The translations under genes and the position numbers were made by a program. Of a stretch of 46,370 nt of DNA, positions 12,682 through 44,569 are shown piece after piece (the stretch's first letter is position 1; the number at the start of each line of letters is the position of its first letter). Source of the DNA: Oscillospiraceae bacterium. Its GTDB lineage: Bacteria; Bacillota; Clostridia; UMGS1810. The notes under the pieces are model-generated. The model ran no database searches and was not told where the DNA came from. It saw only the letters and a list, made by a program, of their open reading frames with translations. Where the stretch lies: assembly GCA_015069095.1 (NCBI GenBank), contig SVJH01000017.1, forward strand, positions 1 through 46,370, read 5' to 3'.

Positions 12682-14835
12682 TTATTGTACATCTTTCATA
12701 GATAATGATATTCTGTTTTTGACTTCGTCTATGTCAAGAACCTTAACTTTTACTATATCTCCAACAGAAAGAACTTCTGTAGGATGTTTAATATATTTAT
12801 TGCTTATTTGTGATATATGAACAAGTCCGTCCTGATGAACACCGATATCTACAAATGCGCCAAAGTCAATTACATTTCTTACAGTGCCTGTAAGTACCAT
12901 TCCGCTTTTTAAATCTTTTATGCTCATAATGTCTTTTAAAAGTACAGGCGGAGTAAAATCATCACGAATATCTCTTCCCGGTTTTAAAAGTGCTTCGACA
13001 ATATCTGTAAGTGTAATTTTACCTATATTATTGTTTTCGCAAAATACATCAACGTTCATATCTTTCATACGAAGTTTTATATCGGAAAGTCCAAAATTTT
13101 TAACGTCATCTTCCGTATAACCAAGTTCTTTTAAAAGCATTCTTGCGCCTTCATAACTTTCAGGGTGCACGCTTGTATTATCTAAAACATTTTTTCCATC
13201 TGAAATTCTCAAAAATCCTGCGCATTGAGTGTACGCTTTAGGGCCGAGTTTTGCTACTTTCAAAAGTTCTTTTCTTTCTTTGAATGCTCCGTTTTCCTCA
13301 CGGTGCGCAACAATATTTTTTGCAATACCAAGGTTTATTCCCGCAACGTATGACAAAAGTGCTGCTGATGCGGTATTTAAGTCTACGCCAACGCTGTTAA
13401 CACAGTCTTCTACAACACCGCCAAGTGCTTCTGAAAGACGTTTTTGGTTCATATCGTGCTGATATTGTCCTACACCGATTGAGCGAGGATCGATTTTTAC
13501 AAATTCAACAAGCGGGTCTTGGCATCTTCTTGCTATTGAAACTGCACTTCTTTGTTCAACCGTATAATCAGGGAATTCCTCTGCCCCTTCTTTAGATGCA
13601 GAATATACAGACGCGCCTGACTCATTAACTATAAGGTAAGAAACATCTTTTGAAGCCATTTTTATTGTATCGGAAATGAACATTTCTGTTTCTTTTGATG
13701 CAGTACCGTTTCCAATTGCAATAATATCTATACCATACTTTTTAATAAGGTTAAGAACTGTAATTCTTGATTTTTCACTATCGTGATTTGGAAGCGTACA
13801 GTATATAATCCCTGTATCGCACACTTTCCCGGTACTGTCTATAACTGCAATTTTACAACCTGTTCTGTATCCCGGGTCAACACCTAAAATTGTTTTTCCT
13901 TTTATAGGCGATTGCATTAAAAGTGCATGAAGGTTTTTAGAGAAAAGTTTAATTGCCCTTTCAGATGCATCTTCTGTAAGTGATGAGCGGATTTCACGTT
14001 CAATTGATGGTGCAATAAGACGTTTATATGCATCTTCCGATGTTGATTTTAAATATTCTGTAAATATGCTTTTTGAATTTGTTATTACATTATCACAAAG
14101 ATATTTTACAACTTCTTCATCGTCAACTTCAATTTTAACACTTAAGAAATCTTCTTTTTCGCCACGGTTTATTGCAAGAATTCTATGGTCGGCAATTTGT
14201 TTTACGCCTTGCGAAAACTCGTAGTACATATCGTAAACGCTGCTTTCTTCTTTTGAATTCTTGCTTTTTATAATACCTGTTTCAAATGTATAACGGCGTA
14301 TAAATTTTCTATAATCTGCATTATCGGAAATTATTTCTGCAATAATATCGCACGCACCTAAAACTGCATCTTCCCAGGTTTCGACACCTTTTTCTGTATC
14401 AATAAATGCAGATGCAATTTCTTCAACCGATTTTCCTTCTTCGTTTTGTGCAAGTATGATTTCAGAAAGAGGTTCTAAACCTTTTTCTTTTGCTATTGTT
14501 GCTCTTGTACGTTTTTTCTGTTTATAAGGGCGGTATAAATCTTCAAGTTCCTGAAGAATTTTTGCTTTTTCAATATCGGCTAAAAGCTCATCTGTCATTT
14601 TGCCCTGCTCTGTTATAAGACGGATTATTTCTTCTCTTCTTTCTTCAAGTGAGCGAAGATAATTTAATCTGTCTGAAAGTTCACGCATTTTCGCATCGTC
14701 AAGTGAACCTGTTGCTTCTTTTCTGTAACGTGAAATAAATGCGATAGTGTTGCCTTCGTCTAAAAGTTTAACGGCGTTTTCTACCTGATTTACTCTTAAA
14801 CCGAGTTCTTCGCTTAAAGTTTTAATAATATCCAT
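12682..14835 (-). CDS. tex: Tex-family S1 RNA-binding protein
   Basis: A 717-residue full-length Tex/YqgF-type nucleic-acid-binding protein. Order: N-terminal helical Tex domain (1-190), a YqgF/RNase H-like domain starting at GVDPGYRTGCKIAVIDSTG (about 320), helix-hairpin-helix repeats around LSYVAGINLGIAKNIVAHRE, and a C-terminal S1 domain (about 640-715; GMVLTGTVRNVIDFGAFVDI, DGLVHISQIS). Tex proteins associate with RNA polymerase and nucleic acids and affect transcription and stress survival in several bacteria; the exact reaction is unsettled. The ATG is preceded by GGAG. It begins two bases after the rsuA stop, so they form an operon. Confidence 0.95.
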   Translation of the reverse strand: MDIIKTLSEELGLRVNQVENAVKLLDEGNTIAFISRYRKEATGSLDDAKMRELSDRLNYLRSLEERREEIIRLITEQGKMTDELLADIEKAKILQELEDLYRPYKQKKRTRATIAKEKGLEPLSEIILAQNEEGKSVEEIASAFIDTEKGVETWEDAVLGACDIIAEIISDNADYRKFIRRYTFETGIIKSKNSKEESSVYDMYYEFSQGVKQIADHRILAINRGEKEDFLSVKIEVDDEEVVKYLCDNVITNSKSIFTEYLKSTSEDAYKRLIAPSIEREIRSSLTEDASERAIKLFSKNLHALLMQSPIKGKTILGVDPGYRTGCKIAVIDSTGKVCDTGIIYCTLPNHDSEKSRITVLNLIKKYGIDIIAIGNGTASKETEMFISDTIKMASKDVSYLIVNESGASVYSASKEGAEEFPDYTVEQRSAVSIARRCQDPLVEFVKIDPRSIGVGQYQHDMNQKRLSEALGGVVEDCVNSVGVDLNTASAALLSYVAGINLGIAKNIVAHREENGAFKERKELLKVAKLGPKAYTQCAGFLRISDGKNVLDNTSVHPESYEGARMLLKELGYTEDDVKNFGLSDIKLRMKDMNVDVFCENNNIGKITLTDIVEALLKPGRDIRDDFTPPVLLKDIMSIKDLKSGMVLTGTVRNVIDFGAFVDIGVHQDGLVHISQISNKYIKHPTEVLSVGDIVKVKVLDIDEVKNRISLSMKDVQ

Positions 14836-14837
14836 TT

Positions 14838-15563
14838 TTATTCTCCTTTGTATCTGTCATCTTCTATTTTTTTAATATCCTCGGCTGTAAGTTTTTTTAT
14901 TTCGCCTTTTTTTAAAGTTTCATCTAAAAAAAGTTTACCCATTGCAATACGTTTTAAATATGTAACGCGAGTGCCAAGTGCCTCAAACATTCTTTTTACC
15001 TGATGAAATTTCCCTTCATATATAGTAAGTTCTATTTCGCTTTTTTCATCGCTTTTTAGAATTTTAAGTTTTGCAGGGAGTGCTTTATATCCGTCCTCAA
15101 GTACAATTCCATCTTCAAACATTTTAACATGTTTTTCTTCTACTTTTCCGTCAACGAACGCAAAATACGTTTTTGAAACGTGTTTTTTCGGAGAAAGTAT
15201 GTTATGTGCAAAAACACCGTCATCTGTAAGAAGCAAAAAGCCTTCTGTATCTATATCGAGTCTTCCTGCCGGAAAAAGATTGTAGTACTTAAACTCATCG
15301 GGCAGAAGATTTAAAACAGTATTTTTATATTTATCTTCCGTTGCACTTATATATCCTTTAGGTTTATTCATCATAAAATAGACAAACTTTTCGTAAACTA
15401 CTTTTTCTCCGTTTAAGGTAACGGTATTTTTTTCTTCGTCTATTTTCATATCAAAGTTTTTTGCGACTAATCCGTCAACTTTTATCTTGCCTTCTTTGAT
15501 AAGTTTTTTTACATCTTTTCTTGTGCCGATATGCGCATCGCACAGAAATTTATCAAGACGCAT
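14838..15563 (-). CDS. rsuA: 16S rRNA pseudouridine synthase, RsuA family
   Basis: Isomerises a uridine in 16S rRNA (U516 in E. coli). 241 residues. The S4 RNA-binding domain is at 1-60 (MRLDKFLCDAHIGTRKDVKK). The catalytic domain has the RsuA/RluB/RluE motif AGRLDIDTEGFLLLTDDG near 100-117 with the catalytic Asp, and EGKFHQVKRMFEALG near the C-terminus. Specificity within the family (RsuA against RluB) is the only doubt. AAAGGAAA precedes the ATG, and the start overlaps the DUF4830 gene by 11 bases. Confidence 0.88.
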   Translation of the reverse strand: MRLDKFLCDAHIGTRKDVKKLIKEGKIKVDGLVAKNFDMKIDEEKNTVTLNGEKVVYEKFVYFMMNKPKGYISATEDKYKNTVLNLLPDEFKYYNLFPAGRLDIDTEGFLLLTDDGVFAHNILSPKKHVSKTYFAFVDGKVEEKHVKMFEDGIVLEDGYKALPAKLKILKSDEKSEIELTIYEGKFHQVKRMFEALGTRVTYLKRIAMGKLFLDETLKKGEIKKLTAEDIKKIEDDRYKGE

Positions 15564-15951
15564 TTTTATATTTCCTTTCGTTTATGTTATGCATATATCC
15601 ATCAAGCCGTGTTATTATTATATCGGAAAATGCAATTTTTCTTTTATATGTAAAAACATTTATATACGCATCTTTGTCAATATGATTTAAAAGTTTATAT
15701 GTATATTTTGTAACTGTTTTTCCCTTGTAAGTATCAAGATTAAACCCTGCTTTTGAAAGCATTTCTTTATATGAATTTATGCTTTCATCAAATTGTGTGG
15801 GAATTCTTACCTTTTCTATTATAACACTTTTTTTGTCAATAATCCAGCCGTATTTTGAAATAAATTCTGTTATGTACTTATTTTTATTAAAAGATATAAA
15901 AAAAGTAACGCAAACAGATATGATTAGAACTAAAATACATATTTTTTTCAT
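15553..15951 (-). CDS. DUF4830-like membrane-anchored protein
   Basis: A 132-residue protein with one N-terminal hydrophobic segment (MKKICILVLIISVCVTFFIS). It then has a small domain with EFISKYGWIIDKKS, RIPTQFDESINSYKEMLSKA, LDTYKGKTVTKYTYK and IIITRLDGYMHNI. This pattern fits DUF4830, an uncharacterised family of Firmicutes. It is probably held outside the membrane by its uncleaved anchor. The start is the ATG at 15951, which follows GGTGAT; the longer frame to 16044 has no ribosome binding site. It is the first gene of the DUF4830-rsuA-tex run. Function is unknown. Confidence 0.7.
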   Translation of the reverse strand: MKKICILVLIISVCVTFFISFNKNKYITEFISKYGWIIDKKSVIIEKVRIPTQFDESINSYKEMLSKAGFNLDTYKGKTVTKYTYKLLNHIDKDAYINVFTYKRKIAFSDIIITRLDGYMHNINERKYKNAS

Positions 15952-16101
15952 AATTATCACCAAAATATAATATGAGTATATCTTGGCAGATATTATAGTA
16001 AAAATAAACAAAAATTCTTTTTTTAAAATGCTTTTTATTGTCAAAATGACGGATTTTTTTATTATTTTTCACAAAATTAACTTTTTAAAACAAACATATT
16101 A

Positions 16102-16130: not shown

Positions 16131-16169
16131 TAAATTATACACTTTATACATAGCGAGAGGATGATTTAT

Positions 16170-17462
16170 ATGGGCGAAGCAAAAAATGTTGTAATTTGTC
16201 AAAGTGGAGGACCGACATCAGTTATTAACAACTCACTTAGGGCAGTTATTGAAACTTGCAGAGAATACCCTGAAGTTTTTGGCACAGTTTACGGTGCTTT
16301 TCATGGCGTTGAGGGTATTATGACAGAAAACCTTGTAAACTTAAGTGAACAACCAAAAGAAGAGGTTGCACTTTTACGTACTACACCAACAGCAGGTTAC
16401 ATTGGCTCTTGCCGATATAAACTTAAAGAACACAATACAGAAGATTTTGACAGAGTTCTTGACGTACTTACAGCACACGATGTAGGATATCTTTTCTATA
16501 TTGGCGGTAACGATACAATGGATACTGCAAACAAAATCAGTATACTTGCACGTGAAAGAGGACACGGACTTGTTGCAACAGGTGTTCCAAAAACAATAGA
16601 TAACGATGTTGGCGATAGCGAATTTACACTAATTGACCATACACCAGGCTACGGCAGTGTTGCAAGATACTGGGCAAATATGGTAAGTATGGTTAACGAA
16701 GAAAACAAAGGTACTTACGGATTTGGTCCTGTTCTTGTTCTTCAGGCGATGGGAAGAAAAATCGGTTACATTACTGCCGCTGCACGTCTTGCAGACCCAA
16801 ATAGAGAAATTCCGATGAGAATATATATGGCGGAATCAAATTACACACTCGACGAAATAGCAGATGACGTTAACGATCTTTTAAAAGAAAGAAAAAGAGC
16901 AATTGTTGTTGTAAGCGAAGGTCTTAACGTTGGCGACCTTGGAGCATCAATCGACCAGTTCGGACATCCGCAGTTTGGTGCAAGTCAGATGACAGTTGCA
17001 CAAAAAATTGTAAATCACTTAAACGATGTAGGTCTTGTAACAAAAGGCAAAGCAAAAGGTCAGGTTCCGGGAACAGACCAGAGAGGAAATATAATTTCTG
17101 CATCTAACGTTGACCTTGACGAAGCGTACGCATTAGGACAACAAGCAGTTAAAATTGCAATGGAAAATGGTAACGGGTATATGTCTACAATCCTTAGAAA
17201 TCCAACAAGATATTATTCTATCCGCTACGATAAAGTTGCGCTTTCACTTGTTGCAAACTCTGAAAGAACATTCCCTACCGAGTGGCTAAGCGAAAAGAAA
17301 AACGACGTAACAGACGAATTTATAAAATATGCAAAACCGCTTCTTGGTAATGACTGGGTATCTATCCCTCTTGAAAACGGAATGATGCGTTTTGCAAGAC
17401 TAAGCCCTATCTTTGCAGAAAAGAAATTAAAACCGTATATTCCACAAGATTACAGAAAATAA
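16170..17462 (+). CDS. pfp: Pyrophosphate-type 6-phosphofructokinase
   Basis: A 430-residue phosphofructokinase. The N-terminal phosphate-donor loop is QSGGPTSVINNSLRAV. The second donor-site motif is YIGGNDTMDT and the substrate motif is GVPKTIDNDVGDSEFT. The Lys in PKTIDND and the Asp in GGND are the marks of pyrophosphate-dependent enzymes (ATP enzymes have GTIDND with GGDG), so PPi is the likely donor and the reaction is probably reversible. GGND in place of the commoner GGDD occurs in one PPi-type subgroup. I chose the ATG at 16170 because GAGAGG lies nine bases ahead; the ATG at 16161 overlaps that site. It is monocistronic, with its own promoter and terminator. Confidence 0.9.
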   Translation: MGEAKNVVICQSGGPTSVINNSLRAVIETCREYPEVFGTVYGAFHGVEGIMTENLVNLSEQPKEEVALLRTTPTAGYIGSCRYKLKEHNTEDFDRVLDVLTAHDVGYLFYIGGNDTMDTANKISILARERGHGLVATGVPKTIDNDVGDSEFTLIDHTPGYGSVARYWANMVSMVNEENKGTYGFGPVLVLQAMGRKIGYITAAARLADPNREIPMRIYMAESNYTLDEIADDVNDLLKERKRAIVVVSEGLNVGDLGASIDQFGHPQFGASQMTVAQKIVNHLNDVGLVTKGKAKGQVPGTDQRGNIISASNVDLDEAYALGQQAVKIAMENGNGYMSTILRNPTRYYSIRYDKVALSLVANSERTFPTEWLSEKKNDVTDEFIKYAKPLLGNDWVSIPLENGMMRFARLSPIFAEKKLKPYIPQDYRK

Positions 17463-17514: not shown

Positions 17515-17600
17515 AGTTTCGCGACCTCCGAAGTATGCACGAAGTCATTGCATTAAAAAATGCGCCGCACAAAGCGACGCATGAAAAACGCAACGCTTTG
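17515..17600. other. GC-richer intergenic block with short hairpins
   Basis: This stretch is visibly richer in GC than its surroundings. It contains GCATT/AATGC and TGCGCCGC/GCGACGCA hairpins (17550-17582) and repeated GCGAC/GTCGC words. There is no coding frame or known RNA motif that I recognise. It runs directly into the nested hairpin at 17608-17715 and may be part of the same element. Confidence 0.35.
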
Positions 17601-17607
17601 TTATGTC

Positions 17608-17715
17608 GCTAAACAAATCTAATTCCACAACGCAAGGTATGCAGAAATAAAGCATGCGTTTTTACCGAAAGTAAAAAACATACCTACGTTACCAGAATAT
17701 TTAGATTTGTTTAGC
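17608..17715. repeat. Nested inverted-repeat element (possible structured RNA or MITE-like)
   Basis: The outer arms are a perfect 15-base inverted repeat, GCTAAACAAATCTAA (17608-17622) and its complement (17701-17715). Inside, AACG and AGGTATG (17629-17641) pair with CATACCT and CGTT (17679-17690). The centre is a TTTTTAC/GTAAAAA hairpin with a CGAAA loop (17659-17677). The three nested stems would fold into one long rod. There is no terminal T-run on either strand, so it does not look like a plain terminator. Confidence 0.55.
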
Positions 17716-17867
17716 ATAATCATTATATCATCAAAAATAATACTTGTCCAGTATTTTGTTGATAAGTTAAATTTAGCAAAAAAGAAACACCAATTTTACC
17801 AAAAAATTTACAATTTTTAGCAAAATAAAAAATTAAGATTTTTATACTTTTTACATTTCAAAGGTTG

Positions 17868-18037
17868 AGTTTACATAATATTTTCAAAAAGTATTTTAAA
17901 AATTAAAAAATATCCACATATCCACTCGGTTATCCACTATTATCCCCGATATTCTATGCAGAAAACTTGAGTTATCCACATATAAAAAGAATTTTTCGTA
18001 AAAAAATGCGTAGGTTTACCTCAGTTTACATAATTAA
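17868..18037. other. AT-rich stretch with cluster of DnaA-box-like 9-mers
   Basis: Five same-direction matches to the DnaA box TTATCCACA lie within 71 bases: ATATCCACA (17910), ATATCCACT (17918), TTATCCACT (17930), TTATCCCCG (17940) and a perfect TTATCCACA (17972). They are flanked by a repeated AGTTTACATAAT, once on each side (near 17868 and 18024), and embedded in extremely AT-rich DNA free of genes from 17463 to 18125. This is the look of a DnaA-binding locus. No replication gene is nearby, so I do not call it oriC. Confidence 0.55.
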
Positions 18038-18125: not shown

Positions 18126-20027
18126 TTATTTTAACGCATCATTTATCACCTTAAAAATGTCTTCTGTTTCAAATCCGCGACGCCACGATGCAACTCCCGA
18201 AAGATTATATTTTTTGATTAAATTCATTCTGTTATTTATAGAAAACGCATCTTCAAGGTATATCGAAAAATTATATCCGTCCTTTTGCCATAACGCAACA
18301 TACTGACCATCTTTTATAACCTTTTTTGCATTATTTTCTTTTATAATTTCATTTGCTCGTTGCATAGAAATTGCACTTGTTTTAATAACATTCCCGTCCT
18401 TTTCCTGCCAATATCTTACATAAAAAGGAACTCCAAGAACAAGTTTTGTATTCTCAACTTCTTTAAGTGTTGTTTTTATACTCTCCTCTGTCCACGAAAG
18501 CGATGCTGCACTTCCGCTTGTTTTTGAATGAACGCCATATTCGTCGTATGCCATAAGCATTACATAATCACACAGTTTTGCAATATAATCTCTGTCAAAG
18601 CACATCGACCACGAATAAGAATACTTATCATATTTTGTAATATCAGCGCTCACTAAAAGCCCAAGCGAATGAGCAGCAAGTGTAACTTCTTTTACATGGC
18701 GTGCATAATCGTATTTATCAGTCATATTTTCAAAATCAAGATTTATTCCGTCCGATTTACTTTTCAAAACACCTTCTATTACAAGATTAAGTGACTTTTT
18801 TCTTGACAAATCATTTTTCAAAAATTTTTCGGTATTTGATTTATTAAAATCATTTCTGTATACAGCCCACAAATCGTAACCGTTTTTCTTTGCATAGTCG
18901 ACGTAATTTTTAGTGGCTTTATCTGTAAGATACAACTTCAAGTTGTTATCTGAGTGCACCAAAGTCGTATTTTTGTAACTGTTATCCGTAGTAAGTTCGT
19001 ACCACACAGGCGAAATTACATTCACACCTTCAGGTGCATAAGATGGCGAATTTATAAAAACTTCCCACGTTAAGTTTACTTTTTCTTTCAATGAAAAATT
19101 TTCATTTGTTAAATAAACATTCCATTTTCCGTCTTTTCTTAAAAGGTATATATCGCACTTTGCGTTATACGCCTTTTCTTTTTTTGTCATATCAGAATAT
19201 GTTGTTATAAAATTTACATCATATATTGCTTTTATATGCGCAGTATTACTTGTTATAAGCACAGTTTCAAAATTCTCATTTGATATTTTCTTTTCCACGC
19301 TCACGCCAAGCGATTTTGCTTGATTTACATATTCATTTTTGAAAATAGCGTCTTCTTTTTCTGTTCCTATTGCACCGTCCAAAGTCCAAAAGTAATTTTT
19401 TGCGACCTTGAGCACTTTCGATTCATCATCTTTTTCGCCGTATTTTTCTAAAACCTTAAGTATTATTTTGGCACTTTCGCTTCGTTTTAAATTCTTATAA
19501 GGGTCAAAATTTCCATTTGGATTACCTTCAATGATACCTAAATCAACCACTCTGTCAAGTTCATTTTTATAAGTATAGTTTTCTTTAATATCAAAAAAAT
19601 AATGAGATTTATAATTTTTATGATAATCAAAAAGTCTGGAAATAATTATAACCGCTTCTTCTCTGGTTATGTTATCATTAACACCGAAATATCCGTTTTG
19701 TTTACCTTTAATAAGGCCTTTTTCTGTGGCGATTGAAATTTCGTAAAAAAACATATGATTTTTATTTACATCTTTAAAATAGTAACTGGGGATGTAATTT
19801 GAAAGATTAAAAATACTTCTTGAAATTAAAGAAATAAATTCTCCGCGAGTAATACTTTGCTGGGGATTGAATTTTGAAAATGAGCCCTTTACAATTCCCA
19901 TATCATAAAGGGTTTGAACGTATGATTCTGACCAGTGCTCGTCGATGTCTGTTAAAATGCTGACTGAATAAGCGGGCACTAAAGAGAGTAAAAGTGTAAA
20001 AATTATGAAAAAACATATATATTTCAT
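18126..20027 (-). CDS. Secreted SLH-domain protein with GH18 catalytic domain
   Basis: A 633-residue exported protein. A signal peptide (MKYICFFIIFTLLLSLVPA) is followed by three SLH repeats (about 25-195), e.g. HWSESYVQTLYDMGIVKGSF and NPNGNFDPYKNLKRSESAKI. These anchor proteins to cell-wall polymers. A linker domain (about 200-330) precedes a GH18 TIM barrel (about 335-630). The GH18 motif DGINLDFENM carries the catalytic Glu, and VMLMAYDEYG and VLGVPFYVRYW match later strands. The layout resembles YaaH/SleL-like enzymes that act on peptidoglycan or chitin-like glycans; which one is open. AGGAGG precedes the ATG. A promoter TTGATA-18-TATACT is at 20052-20081. Confidence 0.85.
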   Translation of the reverse strand: MKYICFFIIFTLLLSLVPAYSVSILTDIDEHWSESYVQTLYDMGIVKGSFSKFNPQQSITRGEFISLISRSIFNLSNYIPSYYFKDVNKNHMFFYEISIATEKGLIKGKQNGYFGVNDNITREEAVIIISRLFDYHKNYKSHYFFDIKENYTYKNELDRVVDLGIIEGNPNGNFDPYKNLKRSESAKIILKVLEKYGEKDDESKVLKVAKNYFWTLDGAIGTEKEDAIFKNEYVNQAKSLGVSVEKKISNENFETVLITSNTAHIKAIYDVNFITTYSDMTKKEKAYNAKCDIYLLRKDGKWNVYLTNENFSLKEKVNLTWEVFINSPSYAPEGVNVISPVWYELTTDNSYKNTTLVHSDNNLKLYLTDKATKNYVDYAKKNGYDLWAVYRNDFNKSNTEKFLKNDLSRKKSLNLVIEGVLKSKSDGINLDFENMTDKYDYARHVKEVTLAAHSLGLLVSADITKYDKYSYSWSMCFDRDYIAKLCDYVMLMAYDEYGVHSKTSGSAASLSWTEESIKTTLKEVENTKLVLGVPFYVRYWQEKDGNVIKTSAISMQRANEIIKENNAKKVIKDGQYVALWQKDGYNFSIYLEDAFSINNRMNLIKKYNLSGVASWRRGFETEDIFKVINDALK

Positions 20028-21777: not shown

Positions 21778-21787
21778 CTCCTAAAAT

Positions 21788-21898
21788 ATTAAAAAGGTTT
21801 CCCGAAAGACACACGAGAAACCTATAATCAACATAAAAATATATCAATTTTAGTCCTCGGCAGGATTTACCTTTGTACCTGCTGTCTTTGGAGCACTT
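21788..21898 (-). ncRNA. Ribosomal protein L10 leader (autoregulatory mRNA leader)
   Basis: Between the rplJ promoter and its start the transcript carries the conserved L10-leader words. They are GTGCTCCAAAGACAGCAGGT and, a few bases on, AATCCTGCCGAGG (44 bases, 21852-21895). A terminator-like hairpin AGGTTTC...GGAAACCT with a T-run follows (21791-21824). In Firmicutes this leader is bound by L10 (with L12) and represses its own operon, here rplJ-rplL. The downstream hairpin suggests control by transcription attenuation. Confidence 0.88.
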
Positions 21899-21902
21899 TT
21901 AT

Positions 21903-21931
21903 TTTATACCATATTTTTTATTGTTTGTCAA
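21903..21931 (-). promoter_or_regulatory. Promoter of rplJ-rplL
   Basis: On the minus strand a consensus TTGACA, a 17-base spacer and TATAAA lie directly upstream of the L10 leader and just after the rplA stop. rplJ-rplL can therefore be transcribed independently of the upstream operon. Confidence 0.75.
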
Positions 21932-40257: not shown

Positions 40258-40545
40258 TGTAAAAAAATACGCCCTCCGTCTTCTTTGGTAAGAATACAGA
40301 GGACGAGATATCTCCCGTGGTACCACCTCATTTTACCGCACTCTCACGATTGCGGCCTTAAAAAGTGTCCGACAACACTTTTGTTCTGTAACGGGAACAC
40401 CCGTTGCATCCTACTTAAGACAAGTCTTGTTCAGCGCACTGCTAACAGAAGGAATTCGAGAAGGATTCTACCATTGTCTTGCACCACCCGACAACTCTCT
40501 TTTTGGGTCATCTCCAACCTACTAGTTTCTGCTCAAACGCATTTA
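40258..40545 (-). ncRNA. T-box riboswitch leader of paaK-ACT (probable Phe specifier)
   Basis: On the minus strand the leader has a stem I whose CAGAA/TTCTG base frames a specifier loop: AGTA on the 5' side and GAA-TTC-C on the 3' side. The distal TTGTC/GACAA hairpin carries GGTGCAA. The T-box core is GAGGTGGTACCACGGGAGAT (40309-40328), followed by a terminator hairpin CCTCTGT/ACGGAGG and a T-run at 40258-40267. The antiterminator would pair T-box bases with the tRNA acceptor end. Read by analogy with glyQS, the specifier codon is UUC, i.e. tRNA-Phe. The T-box call is firm; the codon is an inference from manual folding. Confidence 0.9.
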
Positions 40546-40555
40546 CTATAGAATA

Positions 40556-44302: not shown

Positions 44303-44445
44303 TAAAAAGCGGAAATTATCGATTGTGATAACTTCCGCAAAAATATACTATGTATAAGGCATCCCTACGTTGGCATTATCCAAATCAGGTTATCGGTCGA
44401 AGGTTATACCTTCCTCTCAGCCTGTAATACAAGCTCCCGTCTGTT
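44303..44445 (-). ncRNA. TPP riboswitch with terminator (thi operon leader)
   Basis: The minus strand carries the conserved aptamer words: ACGGGAGCTTG, CTGAGAGGAAGG, ACCGATAACCTGATTTGGAT, AATGCCAACGTAGGGATG (44359-44443). A GCGGAAGTTATC/GATAATTTCCGC hairpin with a T-run follows (44304-44338), a transcription terminator. TPP binding should stop transcription before thiM. A second TTTCCGC word lies just beyond the terminator (44282-44292) and may take part in alternative pairing. Confidence 0.95.
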
Positions 44446-44569
44446 TAATTGTTAAGTATATTATAATCTAATTCTTTACAAAAATCAAGATAAAATTTTA
44501 AGATACACCAAGGTATATATTATAGAGTTCGCATGAAATAAATACAGATTTATTCATATTTCTATCTTA

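Follow-up and report, generated by a model that had tools for sequence, protein, structure and literature searches.

Organization of the Locus

The window, i.e., the whole stretch of 46,370 nucleotides analyzed here, is an entire contig (C25) of a genome of 2.06 Mb in 46 contigs, which encodes a standard DnaA, the initiator protein of chromosome replication. The pfp gene for a diphosphate-dependent phosphofructokinase (16161-17462, plus strand) and an SLH-GH18 gene on the minus strand converge on a gap of 663 bases without genes, which lies between the end of pfp at 17462 and the end of the SLH-GH18 gene at 18126 and which holds a cluster of DnaA boxes. The complete element (17868-18035, plus strand) comprises four conserved boxes of a single direction flanked by two GTTTACATAAT motifs. 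These are box P1 (ATATCCACA, one mismatch) at 17910-17918, which sets register 0, box P2 (ATATCCACT, two mismatches) at 17918-17926 and register +8, box P3 (TTATCCACT, one mismatch) at 17930-17938 and register +20, and the perfect box P4 (TTATCCACA) at 17972-17980 and register +62, 42 bp past P3, all on the plus strand and with start-to-start steps of 8, 12, and 42 bp. An earlier note on this DNA had described a cluster of five 9-mers of the same direction at 17910, 17918, 17930, 17940, and 17972, and all five are located as claimed, on the plus strand; four of them stand in the conserved register, whereas the degenerate fifth box (TTATCCCCG, 17940-17948, plus strand, two mismatches) is not conserved and is absent from the register of the relatives. 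As two of the four register boxes of the window carry changes of the last base and P2 at 17918 carries two mismatches, the affinity of this copy could be below that of its relatives. The flanking copies of AGTTTACATAAT pointed out in the same note are real, begin at 17868 and 18023, and belong to a conserved companion motif, GTTTACATAA, which occupies 17869-17878 upstream and 18024-18033 downstream of the boxes (both plus strand) and which occurs at these two places only within the 46 kb window.

Ahead of the element, a strong hairpin-forming stretch extends over 17515-17720 (z -4.1; arms 17608-17622 and 17701-17715). Copies of 17552-17614 with 83-93% identity are found at three places on contig C30, and the stretch looks like a dispersed repeat. 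Other features of the window, all on the minus strand, are ordinary Rfam matches, namely an L10 leader (21781-21909), a T-box leader (40296-40546), and a TPP riboswitch (44345-44450).

Conservation of the Element Within the Family

Fifteen further genomes of the family, all drafts and none of the window's own genus, were sampled. The arrangement of the window was first revealed in a relative (G010) by a triple-box pattern, and paired patterns added more genomes. In the aligned family copies P1 is followed rigidly and in a single direction by P2 at +8, P3 at +20, and P4 at +62. When the spacing was left free, steps of 8/12/42 gave the best fit in 10 of 12 family copies, the window included; the remaining two are 8/12/43 in G013 and a copy with the first three boxes only, without P4, in G007. 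Besides the window, ten family genomes hold the four-box element and an eleventh, G007, the three boxes. Conservation of the boxes in relatives, on which the earlier proposal depended, is thus found at a shared register. The three family genomes in which the model R1 described below gave no match are all incomplete assemblies.

The gene neighborhoods of these copies differ. In G001, G003, and G008 the element is placed between rpsB and the DUF4830-rlu-tex genes, which diverge there. The same tex, rlu, and DUF4830 genes are syntenic neighbors in the window, where they lie outside the element at 12682-16044 on the minus strand, and the window copy retains this old neighborhood with pfp intervening. 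In eight other genomes (G002, G005, G007, G010, G012, G013, G014, and G015) the element lies upstream of ctsR-mcsA-mcsB-clpC, several hundred bases ahead of the gene start, and a ninth (G009) shows a rearranged form of this location. In G003, ctsR and the element share one contig at a distance of approximately 5.5 kb. No boxes were found upstream of the window genome's own ctsR. The pfp gene, named as a neighbor in the earlier note, is incidental to the element: none of the family genomes sampled has a close homologue, for which reason the gene looks like a later insertion, and the best match in any other sampled genome, from another family, reaches 55%. A public genome scan with pfp returned distant contigs only, the nearest being a Firmicutes MAG (73%), followed by MAGs of Spirochaetota, Planctomycetes, and Kiritimatiellae (60-62%), which suggests that the gene was acquired by horizontal transfer.

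Further box clusters were observed in the family. G001 carries, in addition to its rpsB-linked element, a cluster directly upstream of mraZ whose boxes follow each other at 8 and 12 bp (L112 near 7090; C10:13564-13590). Genus g5 has a second conserved cluster type next to a patatin-like phospholipase gene (L077 1488-1530, L096 1490-1530, and L098 1488-1520; G004, G012, and G013), in which tandem TTATCCAC boxes are followed about 50 bases on by ATGTAAAC, the reverse complement of GTTTACAT. Box pairs 21 bp apart lie upstream of a 4-alpha-glucanotransferase gene in two genomes of the same genus (L114 near 2430 and L115 near 2400; G004 and G010) and are alike in both.

Relatives Throughout the Class

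The model R1 was built from the sequences of nine family copies without any information on tsaD and was used to search 391 genomes of the class, 177 of which matched at E <= 0.001. Beyond the family, 58 of the best matches were inspected for their gene context: 32 adjoin tsaD (gcp), six adjoin dnaA, and three, all from one family, adjoin mutS2, while one is situated on a short contig matching a tsaD-adjacent gene and 16 lie elsewhere. All 32 tsaD-linked copies lie downstream of tsaD in antiparallel orientation. In fits that left the spacing free, their first steps are 9/12 in 29 of 32, P4 follows after 42-44, and a fifth box is often present about 9-10 bp beyond P4. A reciprocal model, R2, derived solely from tsaD copies, matches the window's genome at one place only, the window element (E 4.9e-5, weaker than in the relatives), and among the 13 family genomes in which R2 has a match, 12 have the family element as the top one. 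Matches of both models are biased by construction toward the modelled register, and the weight is therefore carried by the free-spacing fits and by the association with tsaD.

Unlike its 32 relatives in the class, the window copy does not adjoin tsaD/gcp at the 3' end, and no box cluster was found at tsaD in any of 13 genomes of the family. The window element is best read as a relocated family form of the class-wide cluster. In the simplest history, the module would have left tsaD in the family ancestor and would have become shorter by one base between P1 and P2; a possible alternative to relocation from tsaD is that the register was assembled repeatedly and independently under the constraints of DnaA itself. 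In the three mutS2-linked genomes (family f29; L168, L171, and L173) the register is 8/12/41; mutS2 is a third site of the module. A partial literature search returned nothing relevant on gcp clusters in Clostridia or on ctsR with DnaA boxes, and no published description of a register of the 8/12/42 type was found, although the partial coverage leaves its absence unproven. The suggestion that the cluster is an undescribed locus of this lineage has to be modified in this light: a conserved off-origin cluster stands, but its architecture is class-wide and mostly found 3' of tsaD/gcp, the place of a published DnaA cluster of Bacillus subtilis (PMC4447404).

The Companion Motif

Within 200 bases on either side of the boxes, TTACATAA is the top enriched 8-mer both in the family (8 of 12 copies versus 0.6 expected) and in the copies outside of it (14 of 36 versus 1.45 expected), and GTTTACATAA with up to one mismatch lies near 14 of 36 outside copies compared to about three expected (background 0.084 per 700 bp); these enrichments overstate the significance, as the genomes are related and not independent. 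The motif takes a near-constant place in family f53, and in the four copies of the rpsB/tex type, including the window, the downstream GTTTACATAA is found at +114 to +120. As dnaA loci show no general enrichment of GTTTACATAA, it is more than a motif of oriC. The literature search yielded nothing relevant on it.

A Putative Role in DnaA Control and Alternative Explanations

As the register stays constant while the adjoining genes are unrelated among genera, the element most likely binds DnaA rather than controlling a neighbor: the genes converge on it in the window, diverge from it between rpsB and DUF4830, follow it at ctsR, and precede it at tsaD. We consider it fairly likely that the element belongs with the off-origin DnaA-box clusters called DBC in B. 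subtilis, acts by DnaA binding, and thereby restrains or times initiation, and it probably titrates DnaA. In this mechanism, DnaA-ATP would fill P1, P2, and P3 as an ordered oligomer, and P4, four helical turns (42 bp) off P3, would join the oligomer across a bend, perhaps assisted by a protein binding GTTTACATAA. DnaA bound at the element would be kept away from oriC, by which initiation would be restrained or timed. The assignment to off-origin clusters of the DBC, datA, or DARS type, already made in the earlier note, is supported in kind by the register, the conservation, and the off-origin place.

Going further, the element might be a class-wide DnaA-control element, composed of a register of 8-9, 12, and 42-44 bp together with a partner site GTTTACATAA and moved as a unit from one chromosomal location to another, in which a looped DnaA-ATP complex actively lowers DnaA activity as an IHF-free counterpart of datA; we put this forward tentatively and rate it as rather unlikely in this full form. 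More doubtful still is a function like that of datA or DARS, in which a fixed DnaA complex with a bending protein at GTTTACATAA alters the nucleotide state by ATP hydrolysis or ADP release instead of titrating passively. The rigid spacing, the four-turn gap of 42 bp, and the conserved flank motifs resemble such a structured complex, and DnaA-ATP is preferred by the gcp cluster of B. subtilis (PMC4447404), an organism that is, however, said to be without IHF and without datA and DARS loci (PMC13220808).

It is improbable that the role of DnaA at this site is that of a transcription factor and that the boxes form the operator of a neighbor such as ctsR-clpC, comparable to sda or ywlC in B. subtilis. 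Gene regulation by DnaA is known in that species (PMC4447404), and the element lies upstream of ctsR in many family genomes, but even there several hundred bases separate it from the gene start, it lies 3' of genes at tsaD and between two converging genes in the window, and the register persists while the neighbors change.

A chance cluster, or a repeated site of a protein other than DnaA, is very unlikely. Single boxes with up to one mismatch are indeed scattered over the window at chance level (16 seen versus 14.8 expected), but DnaA-box clustering outside oriC is far beyond chance. In 1 Mb of order-3 Markov sequence, the span of the cluster held at most two boxes on one strand when a single mismatch was allowed, whereas the real cluster holds three, and the real number of five boxes with up to two mismatches was never reached when this intergenic DNA itself was simulated 2000 times; the cluster thus withstands the objection that AT-rich intergenic DNA would yield equally dense clusters. 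Genome-wide, the window cluster is the sole place of a triple-TATCC pattern overlapping itself, and single TTATCCNC sites are uninformative, as they are rarer than a reversed-pattern control; what is said here of the whole genome is based on searches with patterns and models. Chance or another protein would also leave unexplained the register conserved within the family and, at tsaD, throughout the class, as well as the DnaA occupancy published for gcp in B. subtilis (PMC4447404).

The weakest candidate, a chromosomal or second origin, has several boxes within AT-rich DNA and a minority of outside-family R1 matches at dnaA in its favor, but it is scarcely credible and was dropped because of the skew pattern and the position of dnaA, in agreement with the earlier argument against the main origin: both flanks of the window cluster have a negative skew without a switch, dnaA and dnaN lie with boxes of their own on contig C30, and no skew switch is seen at the clusters of G002, G005, and G007, that of G005 being near dnaA and about 45 kb from its cluster. 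The 8/12/42 register was not seen in the oriC regions of the family. In four one-contig chromosomes that start at dnaA (G201, G228, G146, and G282), the tsaD-linked element is 12 to 23% of the length away from dnaA.

Comparison With Known Systems

Few bacteria have off-origin DnaA clusters that are known in detail. The class-wide register and its companion motif provide a comparison set for DnaA-ATP preference and predict which spacings matter, and the 3' end of tsaD is one specific place at which the question of titration becomes directly testable outside B. subtilis, in tractable laboratory strains of Clostridia. In B. subtilis, deletion of six off-origin clusters led to early initiation, which was partially relieved by the return of one of them (PMC5295017). 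Its gcp cluster, at position 627,955 of 4.2 Mb (PMC4447404), resembles the window element in having several boxes between converging genes at a large distance from oriC. The relatives found across the class share its place at the 3' end of tsaD, and these tsaD elements correspond to it by position and make-up. To the tsaD elements of the class, in turn, the window element corresponds by architecture. It differs from the B. subtilis gcp cluster in lying elsewhere, next to its old neighbors DUF4830-rlu-tex, and in having four register boxes, with a P1-P2 step of 8 instead of 9, and companion motifs.

Firmicutes oriC regions at dnaA/dnaN use the same 9-mer, and some weakly match the model, but the window element is neither beside dnaA nor accompanied by a skew switch. 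The datA locus of Escherichia coli is likewise off-origin and non-coding, with about five boxes and an adjoining conserved companion site; it differs in that it needs IHF and promotes hydrolysis of DnaA-ATP (PMC5295017), whereas the companion motif of the window is GTTTACATAA. E. coli DARS1 and DARS2 also carry off-origin boxes in a fixed arrangement, yet they work by exchanging the nucleotide of DnaA, and IHF and Fis shape them (PMC5295017).
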